DNA from: Tepidibacillus decaturensis
GTDB taxonomy: Bacteria > Bacillota > Bacilli > Tepidibacillales > Tepidibacillaceae
DNA length: 51,209 nt
Assembly: GCA_016841555.1 (NCBI GenBank)
Contig: JAENYW010000002.1
Coordinates: forward strand, 1 to 51,209
Direction of reading: 5' to 3'
The first letter of the stretch is position 1; each line of letters opens with the position of its first letter. Made by a program: the position numbers and the translations under genes. Below the pieces are notes generated by a model that saw only the letters and a list, made by a program, of their open reading frames with translations, ran no database searches and had not been told where the DNA came from. Positions 1 to 10,577 of this stretch are shown here, one piece after another.

Positions 1-1102
1 AATCAGGAGTATTTTTTAATAGAACCGTTTCATTCGTATTTGATAATAATACGGTATTATTTTTTAACTCCTTATAATGATCTGTGCTTTTTGAAATATT
101 TTGATGCTGTATAGGTAGCTGTTTCTCGACTTTCTTTGGAACTTGAGGTGTTATAGCATTCTTTTTAACATGCAATTTTTCTTTATTAGTTTTTTCCGTA
201 ATTCTTCCCTTAACCTTCATTAAGATATAGATGATATCTAACACCAAAAGGGTTAATCCTATGCTAATGTATAGCACACCTTCATTTTGATATGCTAGAT
301 AACCTCTCCATATGAGAGCAATAAGTAAAAAACCAACTGCAAAAATGATGGTTCTTCGTTGATTAGCTTTTTCTCTCTCTTCTACTTTCCCTTGCTCTTT
401 TTCTTTCTCTTTTTTAACTACAGGCTTATCCTTTTCCTTTTTACTCACGCTATTCTTTTGCTGCTTTATAGGAGAAGGAATTTCATTATTTTCGATATGC
501 TCTTGAGGTATAGTTACCCTTTTACGATCTAATAGAGCTATCAATTTTTGTTTTAATTCCGCTAAACTAAAGCTAGTCTCGTTATAGAAGTTCATTACCT
601 CTTCAAAGCTACTTTCAGCAGGATTTTCTACCTTTTCAATTAAACTGCCAGTTAAAGAACGTAATTCACTTTGAATACTTGCTTTATTAGCAATGTGCTG
701 TAGGGGGATATAAGTAAGAAATACTTCATTCAAATCATTTCCTATATAAATAAACTCCTTGTTAAGTACATAATTATTCTCATTCAGCATGAAATTCGAA
801 CTATCTTCTATTATTGTTATAATCATAAGAAGTAATTGTAAAAATTCATTCTTTGATGTTTTTTTACTTTTAAGTACATAGGGTAACATTCGTTTTGAAT
901 GAATGTTATATCTAAGCTTCACTTTAAAATCTTGTTCCTGTATCTCTATAGGAAGTAGATGAGGAATCTGATTGGATAGTAGCATATTAACCTGGATTTC
1001 CGCTAATTCGTTATTGTCAATTCCTTCTTGTTTACTCATTATTAGATAGTTTTTATGCTGTTGAACGTAATCATAGTTAAATCCATAAATTGTGTTATCC
1101 AT
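1..1102 (-). CDS. DUF6382-type (probable FHA) Tad-locus protein, 3' end outside window
   Basis: The frame stays open for 367 codons from an ATG at 1102 (preceded by AGGAAAGGAA) to the window edge, so the C-terminus is missing. The first ~200 residues form a soluble domain resembling the DUF6382 N-terminal region of proteins found in Firmicute tad loci. A Lys/Glu-rich linker (about 219-247) is followed by two hydrophobic segments (about 251-269 and 275-295) and a basic tail. Relatives usually end in a phosphothreonine-binding FHA domain; here that part would lie outside the window, so the FHA assignment is inference. It is the last visible gene of the tad operon, 16 bp after the prepilin peptidase. 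A role as a cytoplasmic or membrane adaptor of the pilus machine is plausible but unproven. Confidence 0.72.
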   Translation of the reverse strand, partial: MDNTIYGFNYDYVQQHKNYLIMSKQEGIDNNELAEIQVNMLLSNQIPHLLPIEIQEQDFKVKLRYNIHSKRMLPYVLKSKKTSKNEFLQLLLMIITIIEDSSNFMLNENNYVLNKEFIYIGNDLNEVFLTYIPLQHIANKASIQSELRSLTGSLIEKVENPAESSFEEVMNFYNETSFSLAELKQKLIALLDRKRVTIPQEHIENNEIPSPIKQQKNSVSKKEKDKPVVKKEKEKEQGKVEEREKANQRRTIIFAVGFLLIALIWRGYLAYQNEGVLYISIGLTLLVLDIIYILMKVKGRITEKTNKEKLHVKKNAITPQVPKKVEKQLPIQHQNISKSTDHYKELKNNTVLLSNTNETVLLKNTPD

Positions 1103-1118
1103 TACAACCATTCCTTTC

Positions 1119-1634
1119 CTACATCGGATGATACATATAGGCAGTTATTACTCCAGGAATTACCGCATACATAAAAGGGAACCTCATGCTACTCTCTTTT
1201 TTGAAATCCTGAATAGTTGTTAGATCCTTCATAAATAAAATTTCGAATAAATGAAAGAGCGTATGCGTCATCCGTCTAATAAATTCTTTTCTGTACAATA
1301 AAATCCCTACTCCTATAAGTCCTCCATAAAGAATGGAATACATCATCGTATTTAGTACAAAGATTGTTCCAGTTATTGCACCAATTGCAGCAAATAATTT
1401 AACGTCTCCTGCTCCAATCCCGCCTAATAGATATAGGATTAGTAATAAAACAGTAGCAATAATTAAACCAATAAACGAAAACTTTAGCCCATCAAAACCA
1501 TTGATGACACCATTATATAGTAGCCCTCCAACAATCCCGCTTACTGTAATAACATTAGGGATTTTTGAAGTTTTAATATCTGTATAAAAAGAAGAAATCA
1601 TTAATATAGACAATAAAATGATGTTTAGATACAT
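1119..1634 (-). CDS. prepilin peptidase, A24 family (TadV/CpaA-like)
   Basis: A 171-residue integral membrane aspartyl protease that cleaves the leader of Flp-type pilins. The two catalytic aspartates of the family are visible: D19 in the YTDIKTSKIPN segment and D77 in the GAGDVKLF (GxGD) motif. Several hydrophobic segments surround them. The length fits the short CpaA/TadV type, which lacks the N-terminal methylase domain of PilD. The start ATG follows a GGAGG with a rather long 12-nt spacer. The upstream Flp pilin and the TadE-like protein both carry class III-type leaders with Glu at +5, which are its likely substrates. Confidence 0.9.
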   Translation of the reverse strand: MYLNIILLSILMISSFYTDIKTSKIPNVITVSGIVGGLLYNGVINGFDGLKFSFIGLIIATVLLLILYLLGGIGAGDVKLFAAIGAITGTIFVLNTMMYSILYGGLIGVGILLYRKEFIRRMTHTLFHLFEILFMKDLTTIQDFKKESSMRFPFMYAVIPGVITAYMYHPM

Positions 1635-1652: not shown

Positions 1653-3899
1653 TTAATACGCCATTACTGCTCTTCTCGTAATTCGATAGCGATTCCCTTC
1701 TACCGTTCCATCTAAAACTCCTATTATATTAAGAGCTCTCATCACTCCAGGTATAAACCAAAGATTGATAGAGGTAGTAATTTCTCCATCAATATAAGTA
1801 GGTACTCTAGTTAAATTCTTGTCTGTGTTAAAGTGAATCAACGCTTGAATACGAGATAATTTTGTATCATCTCCGTTATGAAATAAAAATATAAGTCGAA
1901 GATAATCTTTATAAGTAAAAGGTATTTTTGCATATTTTGAAAGGGTATGTTCTCCATCATGAATTAGCTTTAGCATATCTACCACAGATTTAGTAACACC
2001 ATAAATTAATGCTCCTATTAAAATAGCAAGGGGATGTGATGCAGCCCTAACCTTAGGGTCAGAAAAGCCTTCTAGCGTATTAATCCCTAATCGAATCAAG
2101 AAGATATCCCTAAATGCCTTTGCTATATTACCACTAGGAACATCAGAGCCATAGATAACATATTCAATTTCCTGATTTTGAATAGACAGTAGTTCGCCAA
2201 GTGTATCTGTTAAATGATTCTTATCTATACTTATATCTTCAGCCTTATTATCCCCTTCCTCTATATGGTCAGATTTTTTATATGTAATAACTTGTTCAAG
2301 GCTAGTGGGATCAAAATGATTAAATCGTTCAAAAACATATTCATTTACATACGCATCATCAATAAAATCTTCTAAAATATTTTCTATATCAGTAAATAGT
2401 TTACTTACCTTTCCGAGCGCATCTTTTGCATCATAATTTTGATTTTCATTATCTTTATTGGCTTTGTTATTTTTGTTATTTAAGTCTAAATAATAATCAA
2501 AATAGGTATCTACAAGCTGATATTCTTCTTGTTTTCCTTGGAAATCTCCTATTTCATCAAATAGAGTTAATAGTTGGTTATAGCTTGGTTGATTATCTGG
2601 TGTTTTTTTATCTGCATCCTTTTTTTCCTTTTCTACTTTATCTAATGTTTTATTTATATTTCCAAAGTTTTTTCCTATGCTGGTACCATATTCGATTATT
2701 GTCGTTCTTTCTTTCTGTATATCCTCTATTGCTTCGTTCATTTTTTTTATTGTTTTGTTTACTTCATTCCCATTTGCTTGTAAAGCATTATTAATAATAT
2801 TTTCACATGTGGAAAGCTTACTAACGAATGATTGATAATCTACTTTCTCTTTTTCTAGCGTATTCATCATTGTAGAAAATACCTCTTCAGATATGACTAA
2901 TTCCTTTTCATTCAATAAATCTCCATCTGTTTTTTCAGTTGAATCGATTGAAATCTGATTAACTTCACCTATTTCTTTTGCTATAATATTATTTAAACGC
3001 TCAGCCTCTTCTATATAGGCTATTGCCTTATCAATTGTTTGATTAAAAGCTTTCTGTTTTGATTGATAATACTCAGATAATTTTTCTGCTTTTTCCATAG
3101 ATTCTGATTTATAAATAGAAATTGCTTCTTCTAATTGCTTACGCTGTTGTTCAATTGCTATTATTTCTTCTAGAGATTTCGTTTCATCAATAACTAAGCT
3201 ATCTAAATTCTTAATATTACTTATATATTGATTGTAGCCAGCTGGTATAGACAGAAGAGTATCAGGATTTTTTTCATTTATTATTTTTGTTCCTTTCTCC
3301 TGTTCTTTTTCTGCTTGTTTTATTTTTTTCCATCTATCATCATAGTCATTTGATATGCTTTCAAGCGTATTGGTTACCTTTGAACCTTGTTCTAAAGAAA
3401 AGGATAGCTTGGATAGTTTATTAACCACATCTATCGTAAGATTAATAGGTGCTTTATATTTCATTTCTTCTTTCATTTGTCGTTCAAAAATAGCATGGTT
3501 CCAAAGTCCATTTGGTAATGGATCGATTATATCCTCATGTTCAGAAGCAGTTATTTCTATATCTTCATCAGAATAGCTGATCATTGTATTTTCTAGATTA
3601 ACATCTACAAATTGAAAATATCCTGGAGATGTGGTTAAATTTTTATCTAGCACTTCTTCATATATACTAGATATATCCTCTTCATTTACACCGTATAAAC
3701 CATACATTTCCTTTAATTCAATATCATATGCAGAAAGAACAGATCTTACAGCTGCTCTTACTGCCTGTTCAGTCTGCTTCTTAGCTGCCGTTACTCTTGC
3801 AAAATCGATCAGAACAGCATTGAAGAAAAAAATAGCTGCTGTAATAATAATTAAAAAAATAGATACGGACCCTTTTTCAGATGGAAGTATTCTTTTCAC
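1653..3899 (-). CDS. large Tad-associated membrane-anchored protein (DUF5702)
   Basis: A 748-residue protein with one N-terminal membrane segment (about residues 12-32) just after SEKG, similar to TadE/TadG-type leaders but without the Glu at +5. The long middle (about 200-480) is rich in Lys, Glu and Asn with heptad-like spacing, suggesting coiled coil. The C-terminal third has hydrophobic stretches around RAASHPLAILIGALIYG. The overall architecture matches the DUF5702 proteins found in Firmicute Flp/Tad loci. The start is GTG at 3899, 8 nt after AGAGG. It is probably an extracytoplasmic structural or assembly factor, with biochemistry unknown. It lies in the run TadE-like, this protein, prepilin peptidase. 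Confidence 0.82.
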   Translation of the reverse strand: MKRILPSEKGSVSIFLIIITAAIFFFNAVLIDFARVTAAKKQTEQAVRAAVRSVLSAYDIELKEMYGLYGVNEEDISSIYEEVLDKNLTTSPGYFQFVDVNLENTMISYSDEDIEITASEHEDIIDPLPNGLWNHAIFERQMKEEMKYKAPINLTIDVVNKLSKLSFSLEQGSKVTNTLESISNDYDDRWKKIKQAEKEQEKGTKIINEKNPDTLLSIPAGYNQYISNIKNLDSLVIDETKSLEEIIAIEQQRKQLEEAISIYKSESMEKAEKLSEYYQSKQKAFNQTIDKAIAYIEEAERLNNIIAKEIGEVNQISIDSTEKTDGDLLNEKELVISEEVFSTMMNTLEKEKVDYQSFVSKLSTCENIINNALQANGNEVNKTIKKMNEAIEDIQKERTTIIEYGTSIGKNFGNINKTLDKVEKEKKDADKKTPDNQPSYNQLLTLFDEIGDFQGKQEEYQLVDTYFDYYLDLNNKNNKANKDNENQNYDAKDALGKVSKLFTDIENILEDFIDDAYVNEYVFERFNHFDPTSLEQVITYKKSDHIEEGDNKAEDISIDKNHLTDTLGELLSIQNQEIEYVIYGSDVPSGNIAKAFRDIFLIRLGINTLEGFSDPKVRAASHPLAILIGALIYGVTKSVVDMLKLIHDGEHTLSKYAKIPFTYKDYLRLIFLFHNGDDTKLSRIQALIHFNTDKNLTRVPTYIDGEITTSINLWFIPGVMRALNIIGVLDGTVEGNRYRITRRAVMAY

Positions 3900-3925: not shown

Positions 3926-4624
3926 CTATTTTTTCTTCTTCTTTTCCTTTTTTCCTTTGAAATATTCAGAAATAGTATCTTTGTTATCCATCAAAGCATT
4001 GCTATATTTACGTACAAAATCGATATTACGAATAAATTCAATTGGGTCTGTAATAGTAGCACTAGCAGTAGCTGTTACTTTATTACCTAAAATTGTTTGC
4101 AGAAATAAAGGTAATTTTATAGGGCTATAAAGTTCTACTGTTACCTTACGTTCTATCCAATTATTCTTATAGGTAAGCTTTCCTTCTATCCCCTTTGGTA
4201 TGATATTTGCTATATTATATAGTTTTTTTGTTGGTAATGGTACGTCATCAGCAGTGGGAAGGGACCTCTCATCTGATGAAAGGTTTACCGTTCTTTTGTA
4301 TTCACTGTTAGTATTAAATAAAATATCTAATATATTATCATCAGTCAGTCGCCAATAAAGAGGATCCCTATCTTCAATAGAGAAAGCACCTGTATATGGA
4401 TCTTTATTACTATTGTCCCAATGAAAGGCTACTCTTTCAGCAACCTCAGAAGCAATATAATAAAGTACAACCTTTTGATAGACAAATATACTAAAGAAAA
4501 TCATAGCTACTAAAGCCAAAAAAATGATAGGGAAAAGTAGAGAAGCTTCTATTGTAAAGCTCCCCTTTTCATTTTTCTTTCTTCTTAACAAGACTATTAT
4601 TCTCTTCATAATCTTCATTATCAT
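3926..4624 (-). CDS. TadE-like pseudopilin
   Basis: A 232-residue protein. A short basic N-terminus is followed by KGSFTIEASLLFP, a class III prepilin-type cleavage motif with Glu at +5 after the Gly, then a ~22-residue hydrophobic helix. The rest (about 50-220) is an extracytoplasmic domain, and the extreme C-terminus is Lys-rich. This is the layout of TadE/TadF minor pseudopilins. The gene begins 6 bp after the Flp pilin stop and lacks a strong ribosome binding site, so translational coupling to flp is likely; ATGs at codons 1, 3 and 6 are all possible starts. It was probably matured by the prepilin peptidase encoded two genes downstream. Confidence 0.83.
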   Translation of the reverse strand: MIMKIMKRIIVLLRRKKNEKGSFTIEASLLFPIIFLALVAMIFFSIFVYQKVVLYYIASEVAERVAFHWDNSNKDPYTGAFSIEDRDPLYWRLTDDNILDILFNTNSEYKRTVNLSSDERSLPTADDVPLPTKKLYNIANIIPKGIEGKLTYKNNWIERKVTVELYSPIKLPLFLQTILGNKVTATASATITDPIEFIRNIDFVRKYSNALMDNKDTISEYFKGKKEKKKKK

Positions 4625-4630
4625 CCATTA

Positions 4631-4822
4631 CTATGGATTTTTAACATCTAATTCTAAATCATTCATATTATCTTCCATGCCACCTAATAAGCCATTTACC
4701 CATGAAACGATATACTTCCTAAATGCTATAGCCACCGCAATTAAAACAGCTACTATTAATAGAATCTCTAAGGTTCCTAATCCTTCTTCGTCCTCCCAAA
4801 AATTCTTTAACCAATTCATCAT
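4631..4822 (-). CDS. flp: Flp-type (type IVb) major pilin precursor
   Basis: A 63-residue prepilin. The leader ends in WEDEEG, followed by LGTLEILLI, so cleavage after Gly leaves Glu at mature position 5, the hallmark of Flp pilins. A ~20-residue hydrophobic helix and a short acidic tail follow. The longer open frame reaching back to 4975 overlaps tadC; the tandem ATGs at 4822 and 4819 sit 9-12 nt after AAAGGAG and are chosen as the start. The gene lies between tadC and the TadE-like gene. The small size is typical of the family. It should be the structural subunit of the surface fibre. Confidence 0.88.
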   Translation of the reverse strand: MMNWLKNFWEDEEGLGTLEILLIVAVLIAVAIAFRKYIVSWVNGLLGGMEDNMNDLELDVKNP

Positions 4823-4842
4823 CTTTTTTCTCTCCTTTATTC

Positions 4843-5709
4843 TTAGTTCATAAACATGATGGCAGGTGATGCCACAATAATCATCACTACCAAAAAAATA
4901 AATACCATAGGAAAAACTAATTTGGATGAAGCCTCTTCTCCAAGAGTTCTTGATAATGCCTTTCGTCTTTCCCAAAGCGTATTAGATAACTCTCGTAACG
5001 CTACAATTAAATCTCCACCCCCTCTTTTATAATTAAGTAAAATAGTTGTTGTAAAAATAGAAACCTCCTGTACACCAATGCGTTTGTTGAATTCTTCCAT
5101 CACCTTTTGAAAGGAATGATTTATTTTTAATTCATTTGCTGCCAATTTTAACTCTTTATATAGCGGGCTTCCTTCTATATTCTTCTTTTGTTCTACACAC
5201 CGAATGATTGCATTTTGCAAGGTTTCCCCAGCATTAACTAGCAACGTTATCTTATTTAGTAATTCTGGTAGCTCTAAGATAACTTTTTGTTCTTTCTTTT
5301 TGATTTTTTTATCTAAGTCCTTTATTATTCCATAAACCAAAATAGGTAAGAAAAATACACCAAAAAAGAAAATCATGAAATCCCCATTAGCCAATATCGT
5401 AATTAATGTGACTAAAAGCATAACTAATAAAATAGCCGAAAAAATCTGAGCTAAAAACATTTTCGTATAAGCTAAACCATTTCTAGCACCATATATCCTA
5501 ATAATTTTATGATGAATCGTTTGTACGACTCCAGAACGTTCAATTAAATGAAATTTATTTACTAATACCAAGGAAGCAGCAGCCATAAAAACAAATTGAA
5601 AATCCATAGCATGGCTATTAGCAAACTCTTTAAGCTCGTTATTTGCTAATAAAAATAGTATTAGAATAAACACAAATAGCATTCCTAATAATGTATATAA
5701 AACAATCAT
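4843..5709 (-). CDS. tadC: TadC, type II secretion system F-family platform protein
   Basis: A 288-residue inner-membrane protein with N-terminal hydrophobic segments, a cytoplasmic central domain (about 150-255) and a C-terminal membrane helix. The central domain contains the T2SSF signature around LLNYKRGGGDLIVALREL. With TadB it forms the membrane platform on which the CpaF ATPase drives pilus assembly. The start ATG follows AAGGTG by 7 nt, and the gene starts 4 bp after the tadB stop, indicating a tight operon. The family is certain; the label TadC rather than TadB follows from its second position and its shorter N-terminal region. Confidence 0.88.
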   Translation of the reverse strand: MIVLYTLLGMLFVFILILFLLANNELKEFANSHAMDFQFVFMAAASLVLVNKFHLIERSGVVQTIHHKIIRIYGARNGLAYTKMFLAQIFSAILLVMLLVTLITILANGDFMIFFFGVFFLPILVYGIIKDLDKKIKKKEQKVILELPELLNKITLLVNAGETLQNAIIRCVEQKKNIEGSPLYKELKLAANELKINHSFQKVMEEFNKRIGVQEVSIFTTTILLNYKRGGGDLIVALRELSNTLWERRKALSRTLGEEASSKLVFPMVFIFLVVMIIVASPAIMFMN

Positions 5710-5713
5710 CCAA

Positions 5714-6595
5714 TCACACCTTAATTCTCATAATTCGTTCACTGATTATAAAAGAAGAAATCAGTAATAATAGAGCTATTGTCATAATAATGGGACCCCC
5801 CTCTTTTAAACTATATAAGGGATACATATAATCAGGAGAGCTGAAGCTTAATAAAGCCACAATAATAAATGGTGCAATATTCAAGATGCGTGATTCAAAT
5901 TTTTTCTGAGCTACCATAATGGCAATCTCCTGTTGAATTTCTATTTTATCGCCAATGATAGTAGAGGTTTTTCTAATGATTTCATTGAGGTCCCCACCAG
6001 TTCTTTTACTGATAATAAATACATCCGCAAAGCTAGCAATATCCTCTACATCTGTGCGGCTGCTAAAATCCAATAAAGCATTTTCTATTGTGTCCCCATT
6101 TTCTATTTTTCTGTTCATTCTTTCTATCTCATGAATGATATATGTATTAGGATCAGGATAAAGCATTTTTAAATCCTCAACAATTTCACGAAAAGCGTTT
6201 TCTACAGATTTCCCAACCGTTACGGATGATGATAATGAATATAAAAACTGTTTAAACTGCAAGGTTAGCTCCTGCTTACGTTTTTCTATCAATTGTTTTT
6301 TTCGATACCTTGGATAGATAAAGCCTACTAATGATAAAACGAATGAAACAATATGATTTTGATAGAATATAAAGCCAATAGCATAAAAAATAATACCTGC
6401 CAGTAAAACATTCAGTATACGTTCTCTTGTAGACATCATGTATAGCTTGTAATCTATTCCTTCTATGTTCCTATATGAGGTGTTTTCATCGACGTATTCA
6501 CTCGATTCGAGATGCTTATCCTGTTTTTTATCATAGATATAGAATCCTAACCAAGTGAATGCTCCAAGAAGTATTGCTACAATTACGATAATCAA
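5714..6595 (-). CDS. tadB: TadB, type II secretion system F-family platform protein
   Basis: About 293 residues. An N-terminal membrane helix, a pair of hydrophobic segments (about 70-100), a cytoplasmic T2SSF domain with SKRTGGDLNEIIRKT, and C-terminal membrane helices are visible. It pairs with TadC in the Flp assembly platform. The frame is open from a GTG at 6604, but that GTG overlaps the ribosome binding site AGGAGGTG; the TTG at 6595 is 8 nt behind GGAGG and is the better start. It follows the CpaF ATPase gene, the standard Tad order. Confidence 0.88.
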   Translation of the reverse strand: MIIVIVAILLGAFTWLGFYIYDKKQDKHLESSEYVDENTSYRNIEGIDYKLYMMSTRERILNVLLAGIIFYAIGFIFYQNHIVSFVLSLVGFIYPRYRKKQLIEKRKQELTLQFKQFLYSLSSSVTVGKSVENAFREIVEDLKMLYPDPNTYIIHEIERMNRKIENGDTIENALLDFSSRTDVEDIASFADVFIISKRTGGDLNEIIRKTSTIIGDKIEIQQEIAIMVAQKKFESRILNIAPFIIVALLSFSSPDYMYPLYSLKEGGPIIMTIALLLLISSFIISERIMRIKV

Positions 6596-6629
6596 AAAAT
6601 TCACCTCCTAAGATACTTTCTTTATTCCT

Positions 6630-7847
6630 TTAATCCTTGATTCCCGCCATTTTTAGCTTAAGTTTATTTTGTAGTATACCTGATTGCTGCAATGTCCCTA
6701 TAACTCTTGTATCCGTTTCTCCTTCTTCTACAAACTGATATAAAGGATTTAATTGTATCTCACCATTTTCTACTCCAATAATCTCACTGATTTCTAGTAC
6801 TCTACGTGTTCTATCACGCATTCGAGATAAATGGATTAATATATCAATGGCAGATGCAATTTGTTTGCGAATAACCTCTACAGGAAGGGCTGTTCCACTT
6901 AGCACCATCGTTTCTAATCTACTTAGCATATCTACAGTCGTATTTGCATGACCAGTAGATAAGGATCCGTCATGACCTGTATTCATAGCTTGAAGCATAT
7001 CCAACGCTTCAGCCCCACGCACCTCACCCACTATGATTCGATTAGGTCGCATTCTAAGCGACGTTTTTATCAAATCCCTAATAGTAATTTCTCCTTTACC
7101 CTCCGTATTCGCATTCCTTGTTTCTAAACGAACAAGGTTAGGTACACTTTTTATTTGAAGTTCAGCGGAATCTTCTATTGTGATAATCCTTTCATCTTTA
7201 GGAATGTAATTAGATAAAGCATTTAAGAAGGTTGTTTTACCAGAACCAGTACCTCCACCAATAAAAATATTATATTTAGCTATAATCAGCTTGTGTAAAA
7301 AATCTGCAACCTCTTCTGTTAAGCTTTCCTTCGCCACTAAATCCTGCATTAATAATGGCGTTTCGGGAAATTTTCTAATAGTCATCGTCGGTCCTTTTAA
7401 GGCAATTGGGGGCAATACCACATTTACCCTAGAGCCATCCTTTAATCTAGCATCCACTATTGGTGAAAATTCGTTTACTTGACGGTTTACTTTACTAACA
7501 ATGGTCTGTATGATATCTTCTAGCTTTTCTTGACTTTCAAAGCTTAATGGAGCCTGTGTAACCTGTCCTTCCTTTTCTATAAATATTTCATCAGCATTAT
7601 TAATCATAATTTCCGTTATTGAGCTATCATCAATCAAAGGCTGTAAAACATCTAACCCTCTATATGAATGAAATATTCGATCTACCAATGATATCTTTTG
7701 TTTAGCAGTTAATAGGTTCTCCTTCGAAAAAATAAATACTTGCTCTTCAATAAAAAGACGCAGTTCTTCATCTGAAACGGAACTAGTTAAATCAAGCTTG
7801 TTGTTAATTAATTCTTTTAGTAGCTTAATCATGTCTTCTTTTATCAA
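6630..7847 (-). CDS. cpaF: CpaF/TadA-family pilus assembly ATPase
   Basis: A 405-residue secretion ATPase that powers Flp pilus assembly. Visible motifs are Walker A GGTGSGKTT (about 198-206), the Asp-box region TIEDSAELQ (about 223-231), Walker B IVGEVRGAEALDM (about 272-284) and the His-box TGHDGSLSTGHANT (about 290-303). The N-terminal domain (1-130) matches the CpaF N-terminal region. The start is probably TTG at 7847, behind AGGAAGTGG at the end of tadZ; an ATG five codons inside lacks a site. The gene begins 11 bp after the tadZ stop. It would act as a cytoplasmic hexamer under TadB and TadC. Confidence 0.93.
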   Translation of the reverse strand: MIKEDMIKLLKELINNKLDLTSSVSDEELRLFIEEQVFIFSKENLLTAKQKISLVDRIFHSYRGLDVLQPLIDDSSITEIMINNADEIFIEKEGQVTQAPLSFESQEKLEDIIQTIVSKVNRQVNEFSPIVDARLKDGSRVNVVLPPIALKGPTMTIRKFPETPLLMQDLVAKESLTEEVADFLHKLIIAKYNIFIGGGTGSGKTTFLNALSNYIPKDERIITIEDSAELQIKSVPNLVRLETRNANTEGKGEITIRDLIKTSLRMRPNRIIVGEVRGAEALDMLQAMNTGHDGSLSTGHANTTVDMLSRLETMVLSGTALPVEVIRKQIASAIDILIHLSRMRDRTRRVLEISEIIGVENGEIQLNPLYQFVEEGETDTRVIGTLQQSGILQNKLKLKMAGIKD

Positions 7848-7858
7848 AAAACCACTTC

Positions 7859-8962
7859 CTATTGCTCAAGTATCAAAGCGTTAATAGATTTCATCATCTC
7901 TTCATTGAACTCCCTCTGATTTAATAATTGCTCCCTATTGCTGACTGCCTTCCATTGAGGAACATATGGCAAATAGCCGTTTATATGAATATCTAAGCTT
8001 TTCCAATCATTAACTAAGGAATCCCCTAAATATTTATTTACTATAAATTTTAATTTTTCCGAAAATTCATTATAGCTTTCAGCTAGTATTCGTCGGTATT
8101 GCTGTAAGAACTGTTTGTTCTTATTCATACTCTGTATATCATCTAATAGCAGCCACAAAATATAATCACTGTTATGTAAGGCTCCTATGTTCCTTTCGTG
8201 AATTGATGAATCTAAATCAATCACGATAAAATCATAGATTCCCATTTCAATAAAACCAGAAATTAACAACTCAGTCTCTTCCTTTGACATCTCTCCTACC
8301 TCAGTATGATTAGTAGAAGGCTCAAAATAATCGACTTTAAAGCTTGTATGCTGTTTTTTTAACGCTTCTATTTTTGTTGTTATTTGTTTTGGATAAGCCT
8401 TTAAATAGTATAGAATTTCTGCAAAGCCATTATCTCCATTTATAGGAAAGAAGGTTTCCATTGAATGAAAGTATTCTAAATTAAGATAAAATATATTGTA
8501 ATCTCTTAAAGCTAGCTCTTTGGACAAATTAACAGCTAATGTCGTCTTTCCACTTCCACCACTAGCAGAAAAAACAGTTAACACCTTTGTTTTTGACTTT
8601 CCACCATTACCAACAGGTAGATAATCGTTATTATCTAAATAAATACTCATCATCTGAGAAATTAATTGGTTTAAGGGTTGATATTTAAAAAGTATAGGAT
8701 ATAACGAATCTATTAATGACTTGCTAGAGTCTGATAAAATAAAGACCGTCCCAGCTTCACCTAGCAATTTTTCATTTGGAATCAACAAAGGAGCTACTAA
8801 TAGAATATAATCACTTACTCCGCTTAAAATAAATCTTTCTACATTTTCTTTACTAGTAAAGGACTTTATAACAAATTGATGTGTATATTTTGTCGTAAGC
8901 ATATATTTCGTAAATAGGTCAACATATTCTTTATTATCATCAGCAATGATGAAATGTATCAT
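7859..8962 (-). CDS. tadZ: TadZ/CpaE-like protein: receiver-like domain plus ParA/MinD-type ATPase
   Basis: About 367 residues. The N-terminal ~115 residues look like a degenerate receiver domain (IIADDNKEYVDLF at the start). A ParA/MinD-like ATPase domain follows, with Walker A ASGGSGKTTLAVN at about 133-145. The signature lysine of the deviant Walker A (KGGxGKT) is replaced by Ser, as in atypical TadZ proteins. FIVIDLDSS is the Walker B-like strand. The family helps localise the pilus machine, often to a pole. The frame opens earlier, but the ATG at 8962 sits 10 nt after GGAGG and is chosen. It is first in the operon after the small ORF at 8982-9083. Confidence 0.85.
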   Translation of the reverse strand: MIHFIIADDNKEYVDLFTKYMLTTKYTHQFVIKSFTSKENVERFILSGVSDYILLVAPLLIPNEKLLGEAGTVFILSDSSKSLIDSLYPILFKYQPLNQLISQMMSIYLDNNDYLPVGNGGKSKTKVLTVFSASGGSGKTTLAVNLSKELALRDYNIFYLNLEYFHSMETFFPINGDNGFAEILYYLKAYPKQITTKIEALKKQHTSFKVDYFEPSTNHTEVGEMSKEETELLISGFIEMGIYDFIVIDLDSSIHERNIGALHNSDYILWLLLDDIQSMNKNKQFLQQYRRILAESYNEFSEKLKFIVNKYLGDSLVNDWKSLDIHINGYLPYVPQWKAVSNREQLLNQREFNEEMMKSINALILEQ

Positions 8963-8981
8963 ATATTCCATTCCTCCACCT

Positions 8982-9083
8982 TTACATAAAACCAATTAGT
9001 TGCAATATGCCTCCTATAATAAAAACAATAGATATAGTACCTAATATAATTGCAAATCTAATAGATTTTCTTCTCTCTTCCAA
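8982..9083 (-). CDS. small single-pass membrane ORF (33 aa) at the head of the tad operon
   Basis: A TTG codon at 9083 lies 7 nt behind a clear GGAGG and opens 33 codons ending in TAA, 20 bp before the tadZ ATG. The peptide starts with a charged EERRKS segment followed by one long hydrophobic helix (about residues 8-32, with IILGTISIVFIIGG). Its good ribosome binding site, its membrane-peptide composition and its position in the operon argue for a real gene. I recognise no family. It could instead be a leader peptide coupling translation to tadZ. Confidence 0.5.
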   Translation of the reverse strand: MEERRKSIRFAIILGTISIVFIIGGILQLIGFM

Positions 9084-9125
9084 CAATATTCCTCCAAAAA
9101 TTACAAATATTTACCCTGTAACTTA

Positions 9126-9154
9126 ATATTACGGGAATTTTTGCTAAATGTCAT
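9126..9154 (-). promoter_or_regulatory. candidate sigma-A promoter of the tad operon
   Basis: On the minus strand ATGACA (9154-9149) and TAATAT (9131-9126) are separated by 17 nt and lie about 43 bp before the small ORF start. The -35 matches TTGACA at 5 of 6 positions and the -10 matches at 4 of 6. Long A tracts lie immediately upstream (about 9155-9174), as in UP elements. No experimental evidence. Confidence 0.4.
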
Positions 9155-9280
9155 TATTTTTTTTTACTTTTTTTTGACATTTTTATTTAAATTTATTTTT
9201 ATTACTATCAATATCTATATTTTCTTTATATTAATTAGTTATCTATCCATTAGGCTATATCTTAATAAATTGGTTGTCTA

Positions 9281-9312
9281 TGAAAAAACACACAGGAAAT
9301 TTCCTGTGTGTT
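9281..9312 (-). terminator. intrinsic terminator after the MFS gene
   Basis: A perfect inverted repeat with 13-bp arms (9287-9299 and 9300-9312, containing ACACACAGGAAA) is followed on the minus strand by a T run (9283-9288). It lies 30 bp after the MFS stop and isolates the rpe-MFS transcript from the tad operon. The arms have no central spacer, so a loop would have to form by opening the AT-rich centre. Confidence 0.8.
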
Positions 9313-9341
9313 CACTATATTCTATCTATATCCTCTTTTTA

Positions 9342-10577
9342 TTAAATATGCAAATCACTATAGGAGCTACTCAACCGTTTCGTATACAGTAAATACAACC
9401 AAGTAAAGCTGACAATAAAGCAAATGGAACCAAAAATGACGCCAATCACTTGTGGAGAAAACCATTCAAGCAATACTCCTGTAAAAAAAATAGAAAGTTG
9501 CATAATAGAGCCATAGATGGAGCCATGTAGTGAGAAGACTCTCCCTCTCATATCATCTGGTGTATTATTTTGAATTAATGTGGTATCTAAGGGAATGATT
9601 AAACCTCCTGCTATTCTCATTAACAATAAAAAGAAAGCACCAACCAGTAAGTTGTTAGATAAAGCAAAAAAAACGAAAAATAAGCCCTGCACTAAATAAG
9701 CCCAGCCAAAGACATTCTTCATTCTATTGTCATCGTTCTTAACAAATACCGTTACAAGCCAGCCCCCTATAATAACACCAATGCCTTGTATGGAGTATAG
9801 GATACCAATCCCTGTATCACCAGCTTGAAAAATATCAGCACCGTAAATTGGTAGCAATACCTGATAAACTCCTCCAACAACGCCCCAAGACATACCAACT
9901 AACATAAGACCTAGAATTATCGGTGTTTTTCCTACAAATCGGTAGCCTTCCTTTATACTAGTAAAGAAATCTTCTTCTTTTGATGCTATCATATCTTCAC
10001 TTTTTAGCTTCACTGTAGATACAATATAGGCAGATAGAAAAAAGGATAAGCTATTGATTGCAAATGCAGCTTCATGGCCTATCGATGCAGATAACAATCC
10101 TCCTAATGAAGCCCCAATAATACTAAACAAGCCCCATATGGTACTAGACAAAGCGTTAGCTGTCGAAAGTTCTTCCTTACTAACCACAGTAGGAACAACA
10201 GATTGTTTAGCAGGTGAAAAGAAAATTCCAGATATTGAAAGCAGTATATTCAAGATAATGATTAACCAAATGTGATGAATACTAAAGATCAAGCCAATCA
10301 CCAAGAAAGCTCGAACCAAATCACTATAGATCATAATTTTTTTGCGATCAATACGGTCAACCAAGGTTCCAGCAAAGGGACTTAGGAGTAATGCTGGTAA
10401 GGAACGAGATAATAAAACAATGCTTAACATCATTCCTGATTGAGTGGTTGTATAGGTATAACCAAGAAGTGCAATGGTTTGAAACCAATCTCCCAAAACA
10501 CTTCCAGCTTCGGCATAAAATAATTTTCGATAGATACGATTATGCTTTAATAAATGAATATAGGATGTACTCTTCAA
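9342..10577 (-). CDS. MFS transporter, MFS_3/EntS-like exporter family
   Basis: A 411-residue protein with about 12 membrane segments. The loop-2/3 signature appears as AGTLVDRIDRKKIMIYSD, and a second basic motif DDMRGRVFS lies in the C-terminal half. This pattern fits the TMEM/EntS-type branch of the major facilitator superfamily, which often exports drugs or small metabolites; the substrate cannot be read from sequence. The start is TTG at 10577, 10 nt after GAGG located inside the end of rpe, so it is translated from the rpe transcript. In B. subtilis rpe is followed by thiN, so this gene marks the synteny break with the tad locus. Confidence 0.8.
   Translation of the reverse strand: MKSTSYIHLLKHNRIYRKLFYAEAGSVLGDWFQTIALLGYTYTTTQSGMMLSIVLLSRSLPALLLSPFAGTLVDRIDRKKIMIYSDLVRAFLVIGLIFSIHHIWLIIILNILLSISGIFFSPAKQSVVPTVVSKEELSTANALSSTIWGLFSIIGASLGGLLSASIGHEAAFAINSLSFFLSAYIVSTVKLKSEDMIASKEEDFFTSIKEGYRFVGKTPIILGLMLVGMSWGVVGGVYQVLLPIYGADIFQAGDTGIGILYSIQGIGVIIGGWLVTVFVKNDDNRMKNVFGWAYLVQGLFFVFFALSNNLLVGAFFLLLMRIAGGLIIPLDTTLIQNNTPDDMRGRVFSLHGSIYGSIMQLSIFFTGVLLEWFSPQVIGVIFGSICFIVSFTWLYLLYTKRLSSSYSDLHI

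Follow-up and report, generated by a model that had tools for sequence, protein, structure and literature searches.

A 33-residue membrane peptide encoded upstream of tadZ in Tepidibacillus decaturensis looks like an overlooked part of a Gram-positive adhesion-pilus machine

Introduction

Tad pili, machines of adhesion and surface sensing, are widespread, and less work has been done on their Gram-positive forms. The described component that comes closest to the gene reported here is RcpC/CpaB (PF16976), the Tad alignment-complex protein, which has a single N-terminal membrane helix and an extracytoplasmic domain. RcpC is described as anchored by a helix (PMC12307814), and CpaB, anchored by one helix, is placed near CpaE by a model, with no direct evidence that the two touch (PMC13170226). 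The latter also reports for CpaE/TadZ an amphipathic C-terminal membrane helix of its own, which likely takes CpaE to the membrane. The Flp and TadE pilins are short proteins with one hydrophobic helix and a prepilin cleavage motif, in which an acidic residue stands at +5 according to PMC3244431.

We analysed a 51,209-nucleotide stretch of the Tepidibacillus decaturensis genome (hereafter the window), in which a 33-codon ORF precedes a tadZ gene. Like RcpC/CpaB, its product has a single membrane helix, and its gene occupies the slot directly before tadZ; unlike RcpC/CpaB, it stops after the helix and lacks the extracytoplasmic domain, with no Pfam hit. With the Flp and TadE pilins it shares its small size, its one hydrophobic helix and its operon, but we saw no prepilin cleavage motif in the 17 aligned peptides, inspected by eye. 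A conserved subunit that the tested family libraries lack would alter the list of parts of a Gram-positive Tad machine, and the short ORF, a single gene, would offer a way to learn what such machines have instead of a periplasmic alignment complex.

Results

The locus consists of the following features.

8982-9083, minus strand: short ORF, 33 codons, TTG start, read as a single-span micro membrane protein (ORF reading, profile)
9091-9095, minus strand: GGAGG ribosome-binding site of the short ORF, 7 nt before TTG 9083
7859-8971, minus strand: tadZ, start at ATG 8971 or ATG 8962 (Pfam AAA_31, over cut-off)
6630-7847, minus strand: tadA ATPase (PF00437)
5714-6604, minus strand: tadB platform protein (PF00482)
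4843-5709, minus strand: tadC platform protein (PF00482)
4631-4825, minus strand: flp-like pilin, start inferred, ORF open to 4975 (PF16982)
3926-4624, minus strand: tadE-like gene (PF07811)
1653-3899, minus strand: DUF5702 protein (PF18960, 26.2 bits against a cut-off of 26)
1119-1634, minus strand: prepilin peptidase, TadV (PF01478)
2-1111, minus strand: DUF6382 protein, running off the window (PF19909)
9115-9135, no strand assigned: imperfect inverted repeat (terminator-like on the plus strand in a scan; 1 found against 0.4 expected)
9287-9312, minus strand: self-complementary stretch into a T run (by eye; missed by the terminator scan)

The gene order is thus short ORF, tadZ, tadA, tadB, tadC, flp-like, tadE-like, DUF5702, prepilin peptidase and DUF6382, and the presence together of tadZ, tadA, tadB, tadC, flp, tadE and a prepilin peptidase identifies a Tad (Flp, type IVc) pilus operon. 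A profile built from relatives of the window TadZ matches 3fkq (E 7.4e-43), the TadZ structure from Eubacterium rectale; the TadZ-like ARD domain reached only 18.7 bits against a cut-off of 27.4. TadZ/CpaE is a two-domain ATPase with no membrane helix in common with the short peptide; its gene adjoins the short ORF, and the two presumably belong to the same machine. The operon has no RcpC gene of its own, and two further tad loci, of the RcpC type, lie on other contigs of the same genome (C326 and C348; L149, L155).

The initial annotation had placed a GGAGG site, a TTG start and one membrane helix at these coordinates; all are present, on the minus strand, which it had left unstated. The translation of minus 9083-8982, from TTG at 9083 to the stop ending at 8982, is LEERRKSIRFAIILGTISIVFIIGGILQLIGFM*, with a top 18-residue hydrophobicity of 2.7. 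A second in-frame TTG, at 9086, lies only 4 nt from GGAGG, too short a spacer, and the same frame on the plus strand contains stops. The distance to tadZ, given earlier as 20 bp, fits ATG 8962 (19 nt), which is better spaced than ATG 8971 from the GGAGG at 8977-8973; from ATG 8971 it would be 10 nt. Upstream lies an MFS gene, preceded by an rpe-like ORF. The stretch at 9312-9287 is likely the terminator of the MFS gene; the tad operon therefore probably begins downstream of it, and the short ORF is apparently the first gene. A promoter scan of 8500-9600 returned 9 promoter-like sites against 7.5 expected and pinned down no promoter. The repeat at 9115-9135 (CCCGTAA / TTACAGGG), about 20 nt ahead of the short ORF's ribosome-binding site, is a possible operator or 5' hairpin.

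Several lines of evidence support the view, drawn from sequence comparison, that the 33-residue ORF is very probably a real gene. A leave-one-out profile of 16 relatives, from which the window sequence was excluded, gave one match in the window genome, this ORF, at E 8.1e-9 and no second match at E<=10, the procedure being not fully blind since the relatives were first picked by position and look. Scored by profiles lacking them, Litchfieldia reached 37.5 bits, L120 44.6 and L140 only 17.4. In five pooled pairs of relatives we counted 42.7 synonymous changes over 110 sites against 33.3 nonsynonymous changes over 340 (pN/pS 0.25, Fisher 2.4e-11), a selection on the reading frame seen in the relatives and not in the window sequence itself, while the two other frames of the same pairs gave 0.95 and 2.19. 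Changes by codon position in the relatives were 22/8/46, and nine overlapping pairs gave dN/dS values of 0.09-0.38. Among 398 class genomes the profile had only 5 hits below E 1e-4, all directly upstream of tadZ and all members of the profile, the next hit standing at E 2.9e-4; in a sample of 398 genomes from the phylum, no genome but that of the window reached 0.001. The weak hits away from tad loci (best E 2.9e-4; L092, L093, L098, L114, L116) are other short or partial hydrophobic ORFs, with no tad neighbour seen by eye.

The suggestion that the tad operon begins with an unrecognised small membrane protein agrees with the library scans: Pfam, NCBIfam and PHROGs gave no significant match to the window peptide. 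Five of the 17 peptides were scanned in Pfam and NCBIfam and three in PHROGs, and the best score was 16.0 bits for PF20712 against 24.3. The open-licence papers that we searched contained no description of the short ORF.

Relatives were collected from TadZ searches, which had hits in 47 of the 398 genomes of the class and in 34 of the 159 genomes in the family that contains Gracilibacillus (DNA of 30 of the 34 was examined) and which yielded 51 named loci. Similar ORFs upstream of tadZ, which the initial annotation had proposed to look for in Bacillaceae, were found there and beyond. Of the 38 named loci L036-L073, 12 have a related short ORF in front of tadZ and on its strand, those of Caldalkalibacillus, Robertmurraya, two Neobacillus, Bacillus FJAT-29814, three Gracilibacillus, three Paenibacillus and Desulfosporosinus, and the profile adds Litchfieldia as a further carrier among the 38, with the ORF about 1 kb upstream of tadZ. 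In the 13 weaker named loci (L074-L086) nothing scored above 7.1 bits. Five of 30 family loci carry the ORF, two of them new (L120, L140), as do 4 of 28 class loci (L008-L035), three of which are the same records as named carriers. No match came from a single-protein TadZ query against genome contigs or from a plasmid search with the short peptide, and a gene-order search of G085 brought no new carrier, the 2 out of 5 being both already known.

From the end of the ORF to the first matched tadZ codon there are 16-98 nt in carriers and 1,000 nt in Litchfieldia. Most carriers inspected have a plausible ribosome-binding site. Not every start codon is certain: two Paenibacillus have the non-standard ATT where the spacing from GGAGG would place it, and that of Desulfosporosinus is ambiguous. 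In Litchfieldia alkalitelluris (L040, 3000-3990), about 1 kb without a convincing gene separates the short ORF from tadZ, and one ORF translation in it repeats itself.

A TadZ tree was built from the window, the 38 named loci and our own selection of 27 of the 58 class and family loci, carriers being marked by hand for the window and by a profile score over 12 for the others. Of its 66 rows 60 are different; carriers account for 17, all different, and 43 are without the short ORF, repeats having been left out of the tree together with many near-identical rows, most of which are non-carriers. The Tad machine can thus run without the peptide. Presence of the ORF changes 7 times on the tree against a shuffled mean of 15.2, gain and loss not being told apart, by a quick method with long carrier branches (L020, L063, L069, L140) and unsure deep placements. 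By these sequence comparisons, the short ORF is a tad-linked gene that is unevenly kept, in various Bacilli and in a single Desulfosporosinus.

The closest relative available for comparison was Vulcanibacillus modesticaldus, the other of the two same-family genomes out of five, the window's own included, that have this TadZ. Its TadZ is 44% identical to that of the window, and a homolog of the rpe-like ORF lies upstream in both, the window having the MFS gene in between. The short ORF is absent from its tadZ locus and, at E<=0.05, from the whole genome. tadA was not found within its 9-kb tad locus, which seems to have lost the motor ATPase or moved it elsewhere. Since this locus looks damaged, absence of the short ORF there is weak evidence. 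To the initial annotation a frame broken in close relatives would speak against the gene; Vulcanibacillus does lack the ORF, but with a tadA-less locus and so distant a TadZ it is a poor control. In the same locus (L036, about 5089-5161) tadB starts about 25 nt past the tadZ stop, and tadZ has no obvious ATG start.

Conservation was measured on 12 non-redundant sequences out of the 17. Mean pair identity reached 0.47 in the helix (10-26), against 0.19 at positions 4-9, where basic position 9 contributes half of it, and 0.21 beyond the helix; within the cytoplasmic tail (positions 4-8) it was 0.06-0.15. L14 and G25 are invariant, position 18 is S, A or G, position 24 is G or S and position 9 is K or R in all 12, and position 20 is V or I. 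The register was fixed by a pattern that itself calls for G at 25 and a small residue at both 18 and 24; in a MAFFT alignment without the pattern, the same L and G alone remain invariant. The helical moment of conservation was not significant (5854 of 20000 shuffles were as high), so that the exact conserved face is a guess and a one-sided interface is not demonstrated.

Discussion

The product of the short ORF looks, from its sequence and surroundings, like an overlooked part of the Gram-positive adhesion-pilus machine. The reading that we favour, and hold to be more likely than not, is that the ORF is translated into a conserved micro membrane protein that spans the membrane once and acts as an accessory subunit. 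The peptide would insert with its N-terminus inside and its C-terminus outside, as the basic residue at the helix start and the short C-terminal tail suggest. L14, the small residue at 18, V20 and the small-Gly pair at 24-25 may then pack against a helix of the inner-membrane machine; the partner would most likely be the TadB/TadC platform or copies of the peptide itself, and the contact could help to assemble or tune the pilus machine. By crude helix counts and by length, carriers and non-carriers showed no clear difference in TadA, TadB, TadC, Flp or TadE, and therefore no partner is singled out. TadB helix counts were 3-5 in carriers and 2-4 in the others. Among the TadB segments, two show slightly higher hydrophobicity in carriers (2.25 versus 2.00 and 1.67 versus 1.30); the two groups are not clearly separated by TadB or TadC segment hydrophobicity, and no helix is gained or lost.

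An unlikely alternative, suggested by gene position, is that the peptide stands in for RcpC/CpaB in monoderms, as a helix-only mini subunit in the same slot before tadZ, forming a collar around the TadB/TadC platform and coupling it to the TadZ ring in Tad machines without a periplasmic alignment complex. By eye, RcpC lies directly before a ParA/TadZ-type ORF in 6 of 8 RcpC loci (L148-L151, L153, L155), the frame of that ORF being interrupted in L149 and L153, and three of the six (G004:C21, G004:C33, G000:C348) are also TadZ search hits; in L152 the ORF after RcpC has no identification, and in L154 only a short ORF follows. RcpC also occurs elsewhere in 3 of 8 carrier genomes (the window genome, G085, G022) and in 2 of 12 non-carriers (G004, G330). 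The short ORF therefore does not simply replace RcpC, and we rejected replacement of an RcpC lost genome-wide. A truncated RcpC was likewise rejected: eight RcpC N-termini scored -1.2 to 1.1 bits against a median of -1.2 for 387 control segments, whose top scores are inflated by loci fetched with a version of the same profile. RcpC helices thus score like other membrane segments, though a distant origin would go undetected. In G022 (contig 4, 2750-9557; L151, L020), RcpC and a ParA/TadZ-type ORF lie about 5 kb upstream of a peptide-type tadZ on the same strand.

Equally doubtful is a role as TadZ tether or recruiter, in which the N-terminal tail would bind TadZ and hold it at the membrane; anchoring of TadZ had already been put forward by the initial annotation. 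Adjacency to tadZ, the common gene neighbourhood, and the likely inside position of the N-terminus fit this role, but with the likeliest starts the tail has only about 5-9 residues and is unconserved. Moreover, the membrane helix reported for CpaE/TadZ itself in PMC13170226 argues against it, as do the amphipathic TadZ C-termini, which occur in carriers and non-carriers alike. Anchoring of TadZ is thus not specifically supported. Since the constraint lies inside the membrane, packing of the helix with a membrane component, as in the accessory-subunit reading, is likelier than a tether through the tail.

A regulatory leader peptide, controlling tadZ as a nascent-chain sensor or translational coupler, would also be encoded by a short hydrophobic ORF immediately ahead of its gene, as here at 10 or 19 nt. 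This reading is improbable given that the distance to tadZ varies so widely among carriers and that the C-terminus is unconserved; the 201-nt leader folds no better than its shuffles (z -0.88, 30 of 200 as good), and ten loci searched gave no Rfam match. On these two results we also rejected an RNA leader.

That the peptide is a minor pilin-like subunit, assembled into the filament or priming it, is very improbable: it is small, hydrophobic and encoded with Flp-like, TadE-like and prepilin peptidase genes, but on inspection by eye the helix start is without an acidic residue in all 17 aligned sequences. Its size and hydrophobicity would also suit a toxin or antimicrobial-type peptide placed here by chance, a still more remote prospect in that the profile has no copy below E 1e-4 away from tadZ in the 398 class genomes. 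Finally, a chance ORF, for which the lack of the ORF in Vulcanibacillus, the nearest relative with this TadZ, might be cited, has a negligible probability and is already contradicted by the purifying selection in relatives and by the leave-one-out match.

Apart from the short ORF, tadZ is preceded in 25 of the 66 loci scanned (four of them repeats) by a hairpin, GGnAGCACCG...CGGTGCTTTTT, near-constant with a variable inner stem (L013, L014, L015, L025, L029, L053, L055, L063, L067, L070 and others). Six such loci searched gave no Rfam match. The hairpin stands 89-370 nt upstream of the tadZ match, always in Paenibacillus or in the family coded f4, and resembles an attenuator or terminator conserved in the tad leader.
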